A model generated the notes under the pieces. The model had not been told where the DNA came from, did no database searches, and was given only the letters and a program-made list of their open reading frames with translations. This document shows, piece by piece, positions 19,715 through 25,685 of a stretch of DNA of 64,000 nucleotides. The stretch's first letter is position 1. Each line of letters opens with the position of its first letter. This DNA comes from Dyella silvae (GTDB lineage: Bacteria; Pseudomonadota; Gammaproteobacteria; Xanthomonadales; Rhodanobacteraceae). The stretch spans positions 496,001 through 560,000 of the forward strand of contig NZ_JAPJBQ010000001.1 of NCBI RefSeq assembly GCF_026421305.1. Reading direction: 5' to 3'. The translations under genes and the position numbers were made by a program.

Positions 19715-20284
19715 ATGCCTCCTTCAGATCACGGTGGACGTCGCCCGGGTGCCGGCCGGCCAGCTGGTGAGCCCAGTCAGCGCCTCCGTGTGCCCGAAAG
19801 CCAGGTGCCGACCGTGCTGGCCTACCTGGAGGCGTACCGCAGCAATACCACACTGGAAGCGCCACGCCCCATGTCGCTGACGCCCTCGACAGTGGCGCTT
19901 ACTGCGTTTCTCAGTCGCGTGCCCGCCGGCGTGCCTTCGATGGCGGAAGATGACGTCGACGAGGTGGTCGACCTCAACGAACACCTGGTGTTGCCCGGGC
20001 ACGAGCCGAGCACCTTCATCATTCGCGTGTCGGGCTGGTCGATGATCGGTGCCGGCATCTTCGATGGCGATGAGGTGCTGGTGGATCGCGCGTTGGCGCC
20101 GCGGCAGGGCGACATTGTGGTGGCTGTGGTCAACAACGAGCTGACCATCAAGCGCCTGGGCAAGGTGGATGGTCACATCGCGCTGTTGCCGGAAAATGCG
20201 CACTTCAAGCCCATCGTGTTCCGCGAAGGCGAGACGCTCAGTGTCTGGGGCGTCGTTACGCGTTGCCTGCGCACCTTGCGCTGA
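19715..20284 (+). CDS. UmuD/LexA-like S24 peptidase of the ImuA-ImuB-DnaE2 cassette
   Basis: A 189-residue self-cleaving S24 protein. The N-terminus (GRRPGAGRPAGEPSQRLRVP) is not a LexA helix-turn-helix and resembles UmuD-type proteins. A likely autocleavage Ala-Gly is in SRVPAGVPSM. The catalytic Ser is in VSGWSMIGAGIFDGDEVLVD, and the Lys in NNELTIKRLGK. It starts at ATG 19715, directly behind the perfect dyad, and ends 13 bp before imuA. It may act as a RecA-activated switch or accessory factor for the downstream error-prone synthesis genes. Because the DNA-binding domain seems absent, repressor function is doubtful. Confidence 0.85.
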   Translation: MPPSDHGGRRPGAGRPAGEPSQRLRVPESQVPTVLAYLEAYRSNTTLEAPRPMSLTPSTVALTAFLSRVPAGVPSMAEDDVDEVVDLNEHLVLPGHEPSTFIIRVSGWSMIGAGIFDGDEVLVDRALAPRQGDIVVAVVNNELTIKRLGKVDGHIALLPENAHFKPIVFREGETLSVWGVVTRCLRTLR

Positions 20285-20297
20285 CGGGGCATGCGTC

Positions 20298-20921
20298 ATG
20301 GGCCAGGTCGTCGCGCTCGATTCACTCTTTCACAGCCGCCAGGTCTGGCAAGGGCGTGCTGCTCCACAGCCGCCGAGCAGTCAGCCTACGGGCTGGCCAA
20401 CGCTGGACGCGGTTCTGCCAACCGGCGGTTGGCCCGAGCATGCGATGACTGAAATTCTGCTACCCGCCGATGGCGTTGGCGAGCTGCAACTGGTGCTGCC
20501 TACATTGGCACGACTGACGCGCGAGGCGCGTACGGTGATGGTCATCGCGCCGCCGTACGTGCCTTATGTGGCGGGTTGGGAAGCGCGTGGCGTAGTGATG
20601 TCGTGCGTAGATATCGTGCATGCAGACGAACGCGACGTGCTGTGGGCCGCCGAGCAGTGCCTGCGCTCGGCCAGCTGCGCTGCAGTGTTGGCGTGGCCTG
20701 TGAAGGCGGACGACCGCTCCCTGCGCCGCCTGCAGGTGGCGGCCGATACCGGCAAGGCGCTGGCTTTCGTATTTCGTGATCGGCGCCATGCCGTGCAGGC
20801 TTCGCCGGCCGCCTTGCGGCTGGAGTTGGAAGGCACGCCTGCATGGCAGGTGCGCGTGCGCAAATGCCGTGGTGGCAACCCGCCGGTAAGCGCGGTGCCA
20901 CTCGCCTCCGGCTGGTCGTGA
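20298..20921 (+). CDS. imuA: ImuA, RecA-like mutasome protein
   Basis: A 207-residue RecA/SulA-type protein needed with ImuB and DnaE2 for damage-induced mutagenesis. The family pattern GWPTLDAVLPTGGWPEHAMTEIL is near residues 33-55, followed by LLPADGVGELQLVLPTLARL. No standard Walker A GxxxxGKT is present, as is usual in ImuA. It begins 13 bp after the S24 peptidase gene. Its stop is followed within 5 bp by the 268-bp palindromic element that separates it from imuB; in related cassettes these genes normally adjoin. Confidence 0.88.
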   Translation: MGQVVALDSLFHSRQVWQGRAAPQPPSSQPTGWPTLDAVLPTGGWPEHAMTEILLPADGVGELQLVLPTLARLTREARTVMVIAPPYVPYVAGWEARGVVMSCVDIVHADERDVLWAAEQCLRSASCAAVLAWPVKADDRSLRRLQVAADTGKALAFVFRDRRHAVQASPAALRLELEGTPAWQVRVRKCRGGNPPVSAVPLASGWS

Positions 20922-20925
20922 CGAG

Positions 20926-21193
20926 AGAGCCTGTTCCATGTCTCCACGTAGCCCGCGTTGCCCGCTTGCGCCCGCCAGAGTGTGGGGCGTGGCGCAGTGC
21001 CTGACTGGCCGTCAGGTCAAGCCGCGGACCGCGCTCTGGTGGGCGCAAGCGGGCAACCCTTCGGGCCGGGTCTGTTTGCCCGCAGCCCTGCGTCATCACT
21101 CAGTCGTGTACCGACGTACACTCCTTCGTTCTTCCTTGGTCTGCGTGCAAACAGCTCCCGGCGCGGGCCACGTGGAGACATGGAACAGGCTCT
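20926..21193. repeat. 268-bp multi-stem palindromic element between imuA and imuB
   Basis: The outer arms are 20926-20949 and 21170-21193: 24 bp, perfect, beginning AGAGCCTGTTCC. After one mismatch they extend 7 bp more (GCCCGCG at 20951-20957 with CGCGGGC at 21162-21168). Inside are two further stems. Stem two is 20957-20980 with 21034-21057 (24 bp, one G-T pair), with CCTGAC-TGGCC-GTCAGG in its loop. Stem three is 21072-21085 with 21141-21154 (14 bp, one mismatch), with GTGTAC-CGAC-GTACAC in its loop. The fold is a three-way junction filling the gap. It ends five bases before the imuB ATG. It has no protein-like frame. It could be a small non-autonomous mobile element, or a structured RNA controlling imuB-dnaE2. 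Confidence 0.8.
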
Positions 21194-21198
21194 AGCCC

Positions 21199-22611
21199 AT
21201 GCTGTGGGCCTGCATTTTGCTGCCGCAACTGGCGCTGGACGGTGTCCTCCGGCGACGACCGCCCTCGGACGAACCGCTGGTGCTGGTGAGTGGCCCCGCG
21301 CAGGCGCGTATCGTGCACGCTGCCAATGCGACGGCGCGTGCGGCCGGCATTTATCGCGGGCAGCGGCTCACTGCGGCGCAAGCCTTGCTGCAGCAATTCG
21401 TGATGATCGAACACGATGCGGAAGACGAAGCACGCTGGCATCGGCTGCTTGCCGCCTGGGCGTATCGCTACAGCGCCGAGGTGGGGCTGTACGCGCACGC
21501 GGTGGTGCTGGAGGTCAGTCGTAGCCTCAACCTGTTCGGGCCGTGGCCGCGCTTCGAATCGATGCTGCGGGACGATCTGCAGGAGCTTGGCTTCCGTCAT
21601 CGCATTGCGCTTGCGCCGACGCCGCACGCCGCCTATGTGTTGGCCGGCGTGCACGATGGCATCGCGGTAACCTCGCCGGACATCCTTCGCGATGCACTAT
21701 CACCGGTGCCCATTGCGCGCGCACGCTTGCCGATCGAGGCCACGCAGGGGCTGCCGTCGATGGGTATACGTACGCTGGGGCAAGTGTTTGGCCTGCCGCG
21801 TGCCGGTTTGCAGCGTCGTTTCGGCACGGAGCTGGTGGCGCAACTTGATCGCCTGACGGGCGATGAGCCCACACCGATAGACAGCTACCGTCCGCCCGAT
21901 GCGTTCGAGCAGCGCATGGAGTGGACCCATGAGATCGAGCACGTCGAGGCGCTGGTATTTCCATTGCGCCGTCTTACCGGCGATCTGGCGGCGTACCTTG
22001 CCGGTCGCGATGGCGGTGTGCAGCGCTTTGAGTTGGAACTGGAACATCGCAGCGGTCCACCCACTCGCGTAACGGTCGGCATGCTTGCCGCTGCGCGCGA
22101 CGCCACCTTGCTGTTCGATTGCGCCCGTGGACGCCTTGAACGCCTGGAACTATCGCAGCCGGTGTTGGCGATGAGACTGGTGGCACGCGAGCTGCCGCCG
22201 TTCGTACCGGCTGGCCGCGATCTGTTCGATACGCGCCCGGTGCATGCCATTCCACTGGAGCAATTGCGCGAACGTTTGCGCGCGCGGCTGGGCGAGCAAG
22301 CCATCCAGCATCTGCATCGCACGGTTGATCCCCGGCCCGAGAAGGCGCAATCCGATGTAGCCCATGTGAAGGCGGCCACCTTGCCCGAAACCTTGCCGCG
22401 CCCGACCTGGCTGCTGGCGTCACCACATCCCTTGCGCGGCCCTCCGCCTGAAGTGCTTGCCGGCCCCGAGCGCATCGAAACCGGCTGGTGGGATGGTGGC
22501 GACATACGCCGCGACTACTACGTGGTGCGCACGTCACAGGGGCAGTGCGCGTGGGTGTTCTGCGCGCCGGGCGAGCAGGGTGCATGGATGTTGCACGGGT
22601 GGTTTGCATGA
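21199..22611 (+). CDS. imuB: ImuB, catalytically inactive Y-family polymerase-like protein
   Basis: A 470-residue DinB/UmuC-like protein that bridges DnaE2 to the beta clamp. The little-finger and palm layout is recognisable ([35 protein letters not shown]). The acidic catalytic residues of active Y-family enzymes are absent: the N-terminus is [15 protein letters not shown], and the usual SxDE position reads [15 protein letters not shown] possible clamp-binding peptide is RDLF in [17 protein letters not shown]. The ATG at 21199 is 5 bp after the palindromic element and has no clear Shine-Dalgarno outside it. The gene overlaps dnaE2 by 4 bp. Confidence 0.9.
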
Positions 22612-25600
22612 ACGACTACGCCGAACTGCATTGCCTGTCGAATTTCTCGTTCCAGCGTGGCGCATCGAGTGCGCGTGAGCTGTTCGATCGGGCGAAGGCC
22701 TGTGGCTACCGTGCGCTGGCGATCACCGACGAATGTTCGCTGGCCGGCATCGTGCGCGCCTACGAGGCATCACGTGACACCGGGCTTCCCCTGATCGTCG
22801 GCGCCGAGTTCCAGATCGAAGACGGCCCGAAGCTGGTGCTGCTGTGCGAGAACCTCGAAGGCTATACGGCCTTGTGCGCACTCATCACGCGTGGCCGGCG
22901 CGTCGCCGAAAAAGGCGCGTACCGGGTGGTGCGCGAAGATTTTTCCGATGGTTTGCCCGGCACGCTGGCCTTGTGGCTGCCGCAGGCTGAGCCGCAACAG
23001 GCGCATGGTGCGTGGCTGAAGACGTTGTTCGATGGGCGGCTGTGGCTTGCGGTCGAATTGCATCATGGTTCCGACGATGCGCGCCGGCTCACGGGCCTGC
23101 AGGCGTTAGCCGAATCGCTGGATCTGCCCATGGTGGCGGCGGGTGATGTGCATATGCATGTACGCCGCCGCCGGGCGCTGCAGGATGTGATGACGGCCAT
23201 CCGTCATCACCGCACCGTGGTCGACGCTGGCGATCTTCTGTTTCCCAATGGCGAGCGGCATCTTCGCAAGCGTGAGGCTTTGTCGGCCATTTATCCCGCG
23301 GAACTCATGGCTGAAAGCGTGCGCATTGCCGAACGCTGCCACTTCGTCATGACCGACCTGCAGTACCGCTATCCCGCCGAACTGGTGCCGGAGGGCTATA
23401 CGCCGACCACATGGTTGCGGCAGTTGACGGAGGAGGGGTTGCGTTGGCGCTGGCCGCAGGGTGAGCCGCCCAAGGTAAGAAAGCAGGTCGAGCACGAGCT
23501 GGCGCTGATCGAGCAGCTCAAATACGAGTCGTACTTCCTCACCGTGCACGAGATCGTGGCGTTTGCGCGCGGCGTGGGCATTCTCTGCCAGGGGCGCGGT
23601 TCGGCGGCGAATTCAGCGGTCTGTTATGCGCTGGGCGTCACGGCGGTAGACCCGGATACGACCACCTTGCTGGTCGAGCGCTTCATCTCCGCCGAACGCG
23701 ACGAGCCGCCGGATATCGATATCGACTTCGAGCATGAGCGGCGCGAAGAGGTTATCCAGCACATCTACGAGAAGTACAGCCGTGAGCGTGCTGCCCTGGC
23801 TGCCACGGTGATCAGTTATCGCGGCCGTAGCGCTGTGCGCGACGTGGCGCGTGTGCTTGGCATGCCGCCGGACCAGATCGATCTCTTGTCACGCACATTC
23901 TCCTGGCAGGATGGCGACGATCCGCTGGATGGCCGCCTGCGCGAGCGCGGCTTCGATCCGGATAGCCCGTTACTGCATCGCGTCATCGCCTTGACGTCGG
24001 AACTGATCGGTTTTCCGCGCCACCTGTCGCAGCACGTCGGCGGTTTTGTCATTTCCGACCAGCCACTGTCGCATCTGGTGCCGGTGGAAAACGCCTCGAT
24101 GCCCGATCGCACCATCATCCAGTGGGACAAGGATGACCTGGACACCATGCGGCTGCTCAAGGTCGATTGCCTTGCGCTGGGCATGCTTACCTGTATCCGC
24201 AAATGCCTCACGTTGCTTGAGGTGCATCACGGTCGGGTGGAAACGCTGGCCTCGATGCCGAAGGAAGACCCGAAAACGTATGAGCTGATCCAGGCCGCCG
24301 ACACCATTGGCGTGTTTCAGATCGAATCGCGCGCGCAAATGGCGATGCTGCCGCGGCATCGGCCGGAGAATTTCTATGACCTGGTGATTCAGGTGGCCAT
24401 CGTGCGGCCCGGGCCCATCCAGGGCGACATGGTGCACCCTTATTTGCGCCGCAAGCGTGGCGAGGAGGAGGTTACTTATCCCTCGGAGAAGCTTCGCGGT
24501 GTTTTTGAGCGAACCCTGGGCGTGCCGCTGTTCCAGGAGCAGGTGATGAAGTTGGCCATTGAGGCCGCCGAGTACACGCCGGGTGAGGCAGATCAGCTGC
24601 GCCGATCCATGGCGGCGTGGCGGCGCAACGGTGATATGGAAATTCATCGCCAGCGATTGATGGCTGGCATGCTGAAGAACGGCTTCACGCCCGAGTTCGC
24701 GGCGCGTCTGTTCGAGCAGATCAAGGGCTTCGGCTCTTACGGGTTTCCCGAGAGTCATGCGGCAAGTTTCGCCTTGCTGGTCTATGCCAGCTGTTGGCTC
24801 AAGTGCCATTACCGCGCCGCCTTCATATGTGCGCTGCTCAACGCGCAACCGATGGGGTTCTACGGACCCAGCCAGATCGTGCAGGACACGCAGCGTTACG
24901 GCATAAAGGTTCGGCCGGTGGATGTGCGTCACAGCGACTGGGACAACACGCTCGAGCCCGACCCGTCATCACGTGGCGGCTTCGCGTTGCGGCTGGGGTT
25001 CCGGCAGGTGCGCGGTTGCCGTCAGGAGGTGATGGAGCAACTGATGGCCGCGCGATCTCGCCGTTCTTTCGAAGACGTCGCCGATTTGTGCGCACGTGCA
25101 GGGCTCAATCGCCATCAGCAGGAAGCGTTGGCCGAAGCCGATGCCTTGCGAGGCCTGGCCGGTCATCGCCATCGCGCGCGTTGGGCCATGGCGGGCATCG
25201 AGGCGCAACTGCCGCTGTTTGGAAACACCAGTCCAAAGGAAGACGACGTGGCCCTGCCACCGCCTTCGCAAGGCGAAAGCACGTTGGCCGATTACGCGCG
25301 CACCGGGCTCAGTCTGGGGCCGCATCCGCTGCAGCAGATCCGTGCGCGATTAAGGGCGGCGCGGTGCATGGATTCGCGCAGCCTGCACAGCCGGCCACAT
25401 GCCAGTCTGGTACGCGCTGCCGGGTTGGTGACGCAGCGGCAGCGTCCGCAAACCGCCAGTGGCGTGACCTTCATTACCCTGGAAGATGAGTTCGGGCCCA
25501 TCAATGTCGTGGTGTGGAGCCATGTTGCCGAACGCCAGCGCCGCATCTTTCTGGAATCCAGTCTGCTGGGCGTGGATGGACGTTGGGAGCAGGTGGATGG

Positions 25601-25685
25601 TGTAAGCCACCTGATTGCGCATCGATTGCACGATCTGAGTGAGCTGCTTGGCTCGCTTGATGTCCGCTCGCGGGATTTCCATTAA
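22608..25685 (+). CDS. dnaE2: Error-prone DNA polymerase DnaE2
   Basis: A C-family polymerase of 1025 residues used in damage tolerance. The N-terminal PHP domain begins [20 protein letters not shown]. The polymerase acidic triad region [15 protein letters not shown] has aspartates at 369, 371 and 373. A helix-hairpin region and a C-terminal OB fold ([28 protein letters not shown]) follow. The ATG overlaps the imuB stop (ATGA), so the frame upstream of 22,608 is not used. It lacks the long tau-binding tail of replicative DnaE1. Confidence 0.96.

Follow-up and report, generated by a model that had tools for sequence, protein, structure and literature searches.

A three-armed foldback between imuA and imuB of Dyella silvae is very probably one copy of a dispersed MITE-like family, likely mobilised by IS5-family transposases, with an interior that appears to be under selection

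A 268-bp three-armed foldback occupies positions 20926–21193 of the window, the 64,000-nucleotide stretch of the Dyella silvae genome that was analysed and to which all coordinates refer. It is very probably one copy of a dispersed, non-autonomous, MITE-like family, most likely mobilised by IS5-family transposases. As judged from sequence comparison, our best reading is that this foldback MITE family is new, is probably IS5-mobilised, and carries an interior that would be under selection. Dispersal, a target preference, recent copies both in a relative and in the own genome, empty sites, and a three-armed fold kept by paired changes were observed. No published description of the family was found in the accessible part of the open-access literature, and no open-access paper containing both 'Rhodanobacteraceae' and 'miniature inverted-repeat' was found.

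The element, read on the forward strand in the orientation of the family consensus, matched the family profile over its full length (model positions 1–268, 266.4 bits). Its outer stem, P1, is formed by 32-nt terminal inverted repeats that are 97% complementary, the left one at 20926–20957 with the tip AGAGCCTG and the right one at 21162–21193 with the tip CAGGCTCT. P1 encloses arm P2 (20957–21057), whose 37-nt stem halves (20957–20993 and 21021–21057) are 84% complementary, variable in sequence, and rich in G.T pairs in the upper part, and whose tip hairpin CCTGAC-TGGCC-GTCAGG (21000–21016) is common to the sister families described below. A junction mini-hairpin, CCC-TTC-GGG (21057–21065), is followed by arm P3 (21066–21161; stem halves 21066–21085 and 21141–21161). 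The loop of P3 contains a conserved core of 49 nt (21090–21138), within which lies hairpin P4 (21106–21121); its family pattern is GTGTAY-SGAC-RTACAC, and the window copy reads GTGTAC-CGAC-GTACAC. All of these parts were annotated on the forward strand. RNA folding of positions 20915–21205 gave −202.1 kcal/mol, compared with −123.9 ± 5.0 kcal/mol for 200 dinucleotide shuffles (z = −15.7), none of which was equally stable; the stability is far past chance. An earlier note made from the sequence alone had placed a three-stem palindromic element here, with a further small hairpin in the loops of two stems, and both the position and the arms proved correct, the small hairpins being those of the second (21000–21016) and third (21106–21121) stems. 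The arm lengths that it gave (24+7, 24, and 14 bp) belonged to real arms but were underestimates, as the outer stem measures 32 nt and the second 37 nt.

At E ≤ 7e-19, BLAST with the window copy returned 20 places in the own genome (G000, 4.45 Mb); identity to the query was 74–89% at the remaining 19. The number of repeats is thus about 20. Two of these places, at the ends of contigs C6 and C22, appear to be halves of a single element that was broken in the assembly. In the first BLAST search, copies were present in 21 of 41 genomes: 17 of the 20 Dyella genomes including the own one (none in G001, G007, and G012), four of five non-Dyella genomes of the same family, and none of the 16 from the rest of the order. 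This BLASTN comparison with the own genome and its relatives was a check proposed in the earlier note, and its outcome favoured the mobile-element reading. The pattern of the third-arm core matched at least 112 stretches in named genomes, including those of Dyella, Rhodanobacter, Pseudoxanthomonas, Luteimonas, and Lysobacter, among others. A covariance search, also proposed earlier, was performed with a model of the third arm; 24 of the 150 genomes searched from this order gave matches, representing 17 of 64 genera. When the 16 loci from this search (L369–L384) were checked, 14 were whole elements of 265–268 bp with 25–31 of the 32 outer pairs, most of them tipped with AGGGCCTG or a near variant, and no arms were found at L370 and L383. 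Size and plan have therefore been kept across several families of the order. Carriage by plasmids or phages was rejected, as blastn found no match in either collection.

The 191 elements that could be delimited were 150–322 bp long, mostly 267–268 bp. The full-length set comprised 120 distinct copies retrieved with nhmmer (including L157–L188), and partial copies without a detected left arm were left out. As is typical of a MITE, the element is short and dispersed, has no internal transposase, and is bounded by terminal inverted repeats, which measure 32 bp in the 120 full-length copies. The second arm is replaced by a short plain hairpin in L104, L165, L044, L143, and L110 and is missing in L052, L081, L100, and L186, with P1 and P3 remaining in all of them. 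L060 and L065 look like deletion derivatives, consisting of little beyond the outer stem and of a short stub.

The gene context of the 120 copies was determined using a simple codon-usage gene caller. The copies lay between two forward genes (44), two reverse genes (33), divergent genes (31), or convergent genes (9), and three had no neighbour on one side. The orientation bias in co-directional pairs was not significant (44 vs. 33, p = 0.25), on which ground an orientation-bound operon element was rejected. None of the 120 copies was inside a called gene, which is weak information, as the caller would report an interrupted gene as two genes. The 3′ end of a gene was 15 nt or less away in 54 of the 120 copies (overlaps of up to 30 nt counted), and in 30 of the 120 a stop codon overlapped the element tip by 1–2 nt; we read the CTNAG targets at stop codons as the tolerated ones.

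The termini of the 120 full-length copies were mostly AGAGCCTG or AGGGCCTG. For the duplication test, the element bounds were set as GAGCC..GGCTC, and 119 of the 120 copies were used (89 of the GAG type and 30 others). An exact 3-bp duplication was found in 20 of the 89 GAG-type copies and was absent in 69; shuffled sets gave 8.7 ± 2.5, and none of 5000 reached the observed number. Duplications of 2, 4, and 5 bp (9, 1, and 0 vs. 10.1, 0.4, and 0.1 expected) showed no excess over shuffles. TA was present on both sides in 22 of the other 30 copies, where the shuffle expects 21.5; this comparison is uninformative because nearly all 30 share TA flanks. The insertion targets are TNA or TA/CTAG. A target-site duplication is thus seen at the level of the family and is not visible at the window copy, in agreement with the earlier description of no obvious duplication there.

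A recent burst was found in G023, where 19 copies showed 0–6 differences from their commonest sequence and were flanked by CT|AG at 18 of the 19 left ends and at all 19 right ends. A twentieth copy in this genome (L369 and L391, which are one place) had CT|AG at either end. Three copies in the own genome (L045, L047, and L048) differed from each other at 3, 7, and 8 of 267 sites, and this near-identity argues for recent movement there too. Variants at positions 60, 61, 188, 214, and 216 occurred in many combinations among the G023 copies L391–L410, as if copies were recombining.

A candidate for the kind of enzyme involved was found in G080, where an insertion sequence of 845 bp carries two overlapping ORFs and has the tip GAGC(C/A)TGT. 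TA was present on both sides in all 11 delimited copies (12 loci examined, L449–L460), and both ORFs matched the NCBI IS5-family model NF033580. For this genome, 24 DDE_Tnp_1 matches of the same kind were listed. IS427-group elements of Paracoccus are 832–865 bp long, have two overlapping ORFs, and make mostly 2-bp duplications (PMC3281130), and the G080 element, with its length of about 0.85 kb, two overlapping ORFs, and 2-bp duplication, agrees with this description of the group. Because it shares the tip and the TA duplication with the foldback and fits the IS427 group, the mover is probably an IS5-family, IS427-group-like transposase acting in trans, which would insert copies at CTNAG or CTAG-like sites. 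The foldback resembles IS5-family/IS427-group-like insertion sequences and the MITEs derived from them in the tip GAGC(C/A)TGT and in the TA duplication at CTAG-like targets; unlike these insertion sequences, it has no transposase and an interior consisting of a conserved three-arm fold, and it has only about the first eight terminal bases in common with the G080 element.

The earlier suggestion of a non-autonomous mobile element was supported by the approximately 20 dispersed copies, the target duplications, the absence of the insertion from relatives, and the occurrence of the same tip on an IS5-family insertion sequence in another genome. Against this explanation, no IS5-type (PF01609, PF05598, and PF13340), IS630-type (PF13358), or Y1 (PF01797) transposase was found in G000 despite its three recent copies, and in G023, the site of the burst, there were two DDE_Tnp_1 matches, neither with the tip of the element. 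Furthermore, ordinary MITEs decay, whereas resident copies common to species keep their arms and core, which pure relic status does not predict. An IS630-type partner was rejected, as DDE_3 was found in none of the 16 Dyella genomes searched.

The arms were examined for covariation in 59 full-length sequences. Pairing was found in 97.4% of the cells and both-sided changes in 77 of the 99 pairs (0 of 500 shuffles as high), and shifting the partner by 1–3 columns lowered the pairing to 33–42%. Covariation of this strength is what a structured RNA gene would show, although template switching can produce the same picture. Selection on RNA pairing would be expected to leave many more G.T than A.C mismatches on the transcribed strand. 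Across the 120 copies, P1 had 69 G.T and 135 A.C, of which column 25 alone contributed 10 and 76, leaving 59:59 without it, whereas P2 showed 204 G.T vs. 27 A.C (26 columns, 114 of the 120 copies), with a column switching among U.G, G.U, G.C, and C.G. These column-by-column counts are free of the bias of the RNAalifold pair list, from which the A.C column 25 of P1 is missing and in which the U.G-majority columns of P2 remain. On the pair list, the G.T:A.C counts were 39:10, 160:2, and 48:3 in the lower part, upper part, and tip of P2, 27:31 in P1, and 10:17 in P3 and P4 together. The preference for G.U over A.C was seen in P2 only, and therefore P2 alone has the behaviour of RNA, or of a single DNA strand; P1 and P3 behave as DNA palindromes, their arms kept alike regardless of the strand. 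The hint of selection for RNA structure that the earlier note took from a compensating G-T pair is thus neither established nor discounted: pairing is strongly kept, but the second arm is the only one with the G-U signature. As to whether the fold works as RNA, one arm would say yes and two would say no. Column 25 of P1 (window position 20950 with 21169) is a conserved A.C mismatch (76 of the 120 copies) in an otherwise paired stem, and it reads as a G.T wobble on the complementary strand.

Because P1 and P3 contain A.C and G.T mismatches in equal measure, we infer that the arms may stay complementary partly through replication template switching that corrects imperfect palindromes. Template switching at imperfect palindromes has been published as an arm-correction route in bacteria and RNA genes (PMC8794818), and it may act on this family. 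The P2 arm and the 49-nt core of P3 would, in turn, be under real selection: P2 because, on one strand, it tolerates G.T much more than A.C, and the core because it diverges about one-third as fast as its flanks in shared insertions.

The latter was determined from pairs of copies occupying the same site. Homologous flanks were found for 30 pairs at 14 sites, some of which were separate insertions into one gap when their junctions were read. Fifteen pairs, some of them sharing sequences, were taken as shared insertions and compared with 300-nt flanks that are largely coding; L127/L168, which may be separate insertions, was kept among them, and L029/L140, L118/L311, L176/L315, and L015/L083 were too unlike and were excluded from the constraint counts. 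Low-identity pairs in the same gap were also considered as fast co-evolving orthologues, and this was rejected for L020/L023 and L329/L348, whose insertion points differ and which are separate insertions. In the 15 pairs, differences were found at 905 of 8971 sites in the flanks (10.1%), 56 of 960 in the outer arms (5.8%), and 181 of 1739 in the part between (10.4%), and in the 14 pairs in which the core could be excised, at 22 of its 686 sites (3.2%). The core diverged less than both flanks in all 14 pairs, while the whole element was not uniformly below the flanks (L125/L360 differs more than its flanks). L077–L188 had been found by the core pattern itself, and the constraint was recomputed on six pairs from the whole-element BLAST, with 11 of 294 sites differing in the core (3.7%) vs. 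363 of 3588 in the flanks (10.1%). Apart from the recent trio, 14 copies in the own genome showed a median difference of 24% over 91 pairs, and therefore the similarity of most orthologous copies is not due to conversion between copies. The loop of the core hairpin was CGAC or GGAC in 108 of 109 copies (109 of 117 used for this count). A real constraint on the 49-nt core is the favoured interpretation of these comparisons, which involve few pairs, some sharing sequences, and largely coding flanks. A hidden protein in the core was rejected, as changes in the core hairpin look, by eye, compensatory rather than codon-like.

The own genome also contains other foldbacks, which gave weak BLAST hits (L057–L059 and L061–L064) and have tips such as GGATGCTCTGAT or GGAAGCTCTGAT. 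Four of them were delimited at 217–286 bp (L058, 2350–2617; L059, 2437–2653; L063, 2412–2629; L064, 2318–2603). When folded, L058, L059, and L063 showed the same plan, consisting of an outer stem, a long arm with a tip motif, and a third arm. The tip motif of the long arm is GTGGCGCAG..CTGGC..CAAGCCGCG, and in L058 and L064 a similar tip is repeated, as judged by eye, on the opposite strand of the other long arm. In their termini, the sister families are similar to another IS5-type element, about 1.2 kb long (L198, L431, and L432), the protein of which matches NF033581 in L431. The occurrence of one interior with different termini points to its being kept for its own sake. The unusually well-kept shape and core suggest that the element may do something of its own, and our guess is that the core could be a folded strand recognised by a protein, either as a transcript or as single-stranded DNA.

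Of the rival explanations, the one that survives best, although we hold it to be appreciably less likely than not, is that the family is a mobile structured RNA gene, whose predicted top-strand transcript folds and has a function, the transposon ends merely spreading it. It would account for the strong both-sided covariation, the G.T excess and column switching of P2, the conserved core loop and slow core, the size near 267 bp in distant families, and the P2 tip motif retained by sister families with a different terminus. It is opposed by the lack of a G.U excess in P1 or P3, the inconsistent orientation relative to genes, the lack of an Rfam family at the gathering score, and the tip motif that L058 and L064 also carry in the other arm on the opposite strand. 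A broader proposal, to which we give about as little credence, is an order-wide superfamily of mobile three-arm nucleic acids, in which a module of near-constant size rides on at least two IS5-type termini and is kept by selection at its landing sites, as the slow 49-nt core and the one-strand wobbles in P2 might indicate; it would be a portable non-coding regulator or an RNA that binds proteins, as opposed to transposon junk.

That the covariation is purely mutational, with arms homogenised by template switching and the structure unselected, is rather unlikely. The equality of G.T and A.C in P1 and P3 is what it predicts, and its mechanism is the published one cited above, but it leaves both the one-strand G.T excess of P2 and the slow, largely unpaired core unexplained. 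P1 and P3 look corrected and P2 looks selected within the same molecules; strong covariation alone is no proof of an RNA. Even if the interior has no function, the family is a natural experiment on covariation arising from arm correction in DNA palindromes versus RNA selection. If the interior is functional, a transposon is spreading a structured non-coding module between genes, and the many natural covarying copies make its structure, binding, and effect testable.

It is improbable that the foldback is a substrate for single-strand DNA recombination, similar to integron attC sites or REP/RAYT hairpins, with a strand-specific recombinase as the mover. The strand-asymmetric G.T in P2 also fits one-strand DNA, and the long foldback, the conserved A.C at column 25 of P1, and the failure to find, in a genome with recent copies (G000), any DDE transposase from the families searched are in line with it; however, inverted termini together with a TA/TNA duplication are as expected for a DDE transposase, and Y1 transposases (PF01797) are absent from G000 and present in the element-free G001 and G007. 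A REP/RAYT system was rejected on the same distribution of Y1_Tnp matches and on the 268-bp length of the element.

At the window locus, the preferred reading of a mobilised MITE-like copy makes the connection with the imu genes incidental. The cassette is headed by an S24 peptidase/LexA-like gene (19715–20284), followed by a 250-aa ORF in the imuA position (20169–20921, counted from the first ATG as predicted start), which overlaps the S24-like ORF and ends 4 nt before the element, an imuB-like gene with an IMS domain (21199–22611), which starts 5 nt after it, and a gene for a DnaE2-type polymerase (22488–25685; longest ORF, predicted start), all on the forward strand. Pfam supported the S24-like gene, the Y-family polymerase-like ImuB, and the downstream DnaE2-type polymerase; the 250-aa ORF had no Pfam match, so the name imuA rests on position. 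The gap from the upstream stop (ending at 20921) to the imuB ATG (21199) is 277 nt, of which the element takes 268 bp, so that it fills the space between the two genes as had been noted earlier. An imuB search returned 23 of 25 genomes, in which 17 junctions were measured by eye (the own, 15 from other Dyella, and one other from the order). The element was absent from all 16 other junctions, where the gap was 6–16 nt, and the insertion is therefore specific to the lineage of the window among those examined; such empty sites, looked for at the imu junction alone, are as expected of a MITE. The copy would have landed between imuA and imuB after the split from the other Dyella lineages examined, or would have been lost from those. 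The earlier suggestion of an RNA switch private to the cassette, gating imuB-dnaE2 translation, is very improbable and, as a conserved imu regulator, is already refuted: the 277-nt spacing, a right arm ending 5 nt before the imuB ATG, and a predicted ribosome-binding region in or beside P1 would suit it, but about 20 unrelated genomic places, no significant orientation bias, and 15 of 15 empty junctions in other Dyella rule out a cassette-specific regulator. From its position, a local effect of the element on imuB translation in this strain is possible. In G011 (L249), the last 20 nt of the imuA–imuB gap before the imuB start read TGACAGGAGAGCCTGCACC-ATG and contain the tip 8-mer AGAGCCTG, which is possibly a remnant of a lost copy or possibly there by chance.

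The foldback was also compared with other known systems. IS200/IS605, IscB-HEARO, and similar systems with transposon-encoded RNAs likewise combine a mobile element with an RNA-like fold; the foldback differs in its inverted termini, its target duplication, and the lack of an Rfam match at the gathering score in the copies scanned. A known Rfam RNA was rejected for the window copy, as the sole hit at E ≤ 1 within 20500–21600 was a eukaryotic microRNA model (24.9 bits vs. a gathering score of 268), and none of 14 further loci scanned reached the gathering score. Correia/NEMIS, ERIC, and QMITE2-type MITEs are described as small, non-coding, and intergenic elements with stably folded transcripts, those of Correia elements being cleaved by RNase III (PMC10969869). 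The foldback is similarly small, non-coding, and intergenic, and is set apart from them by description through its three separate arms, the both-sided changes in 77 of 99 pairs, and a second arm that is exchanged or lost as a module. REP/BIME elements with RAYT are, like the foldback, intergenic palindromes close to gene ends; REP palindromes are given as 20–40 bp (PMC3733652), unlike the foldback of about 267 bp, which also has a target duplication.

Several contigs end within the element. In Dyella sp. ASV24, the public contigs L085, L108, L116, and L187 end within the hairpin in poly-C and in sequence that resembles a sequencing adapter, and contigs C6 and C22 of the own genome end inside copies. 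The foldback seems to break short-read assemblies.
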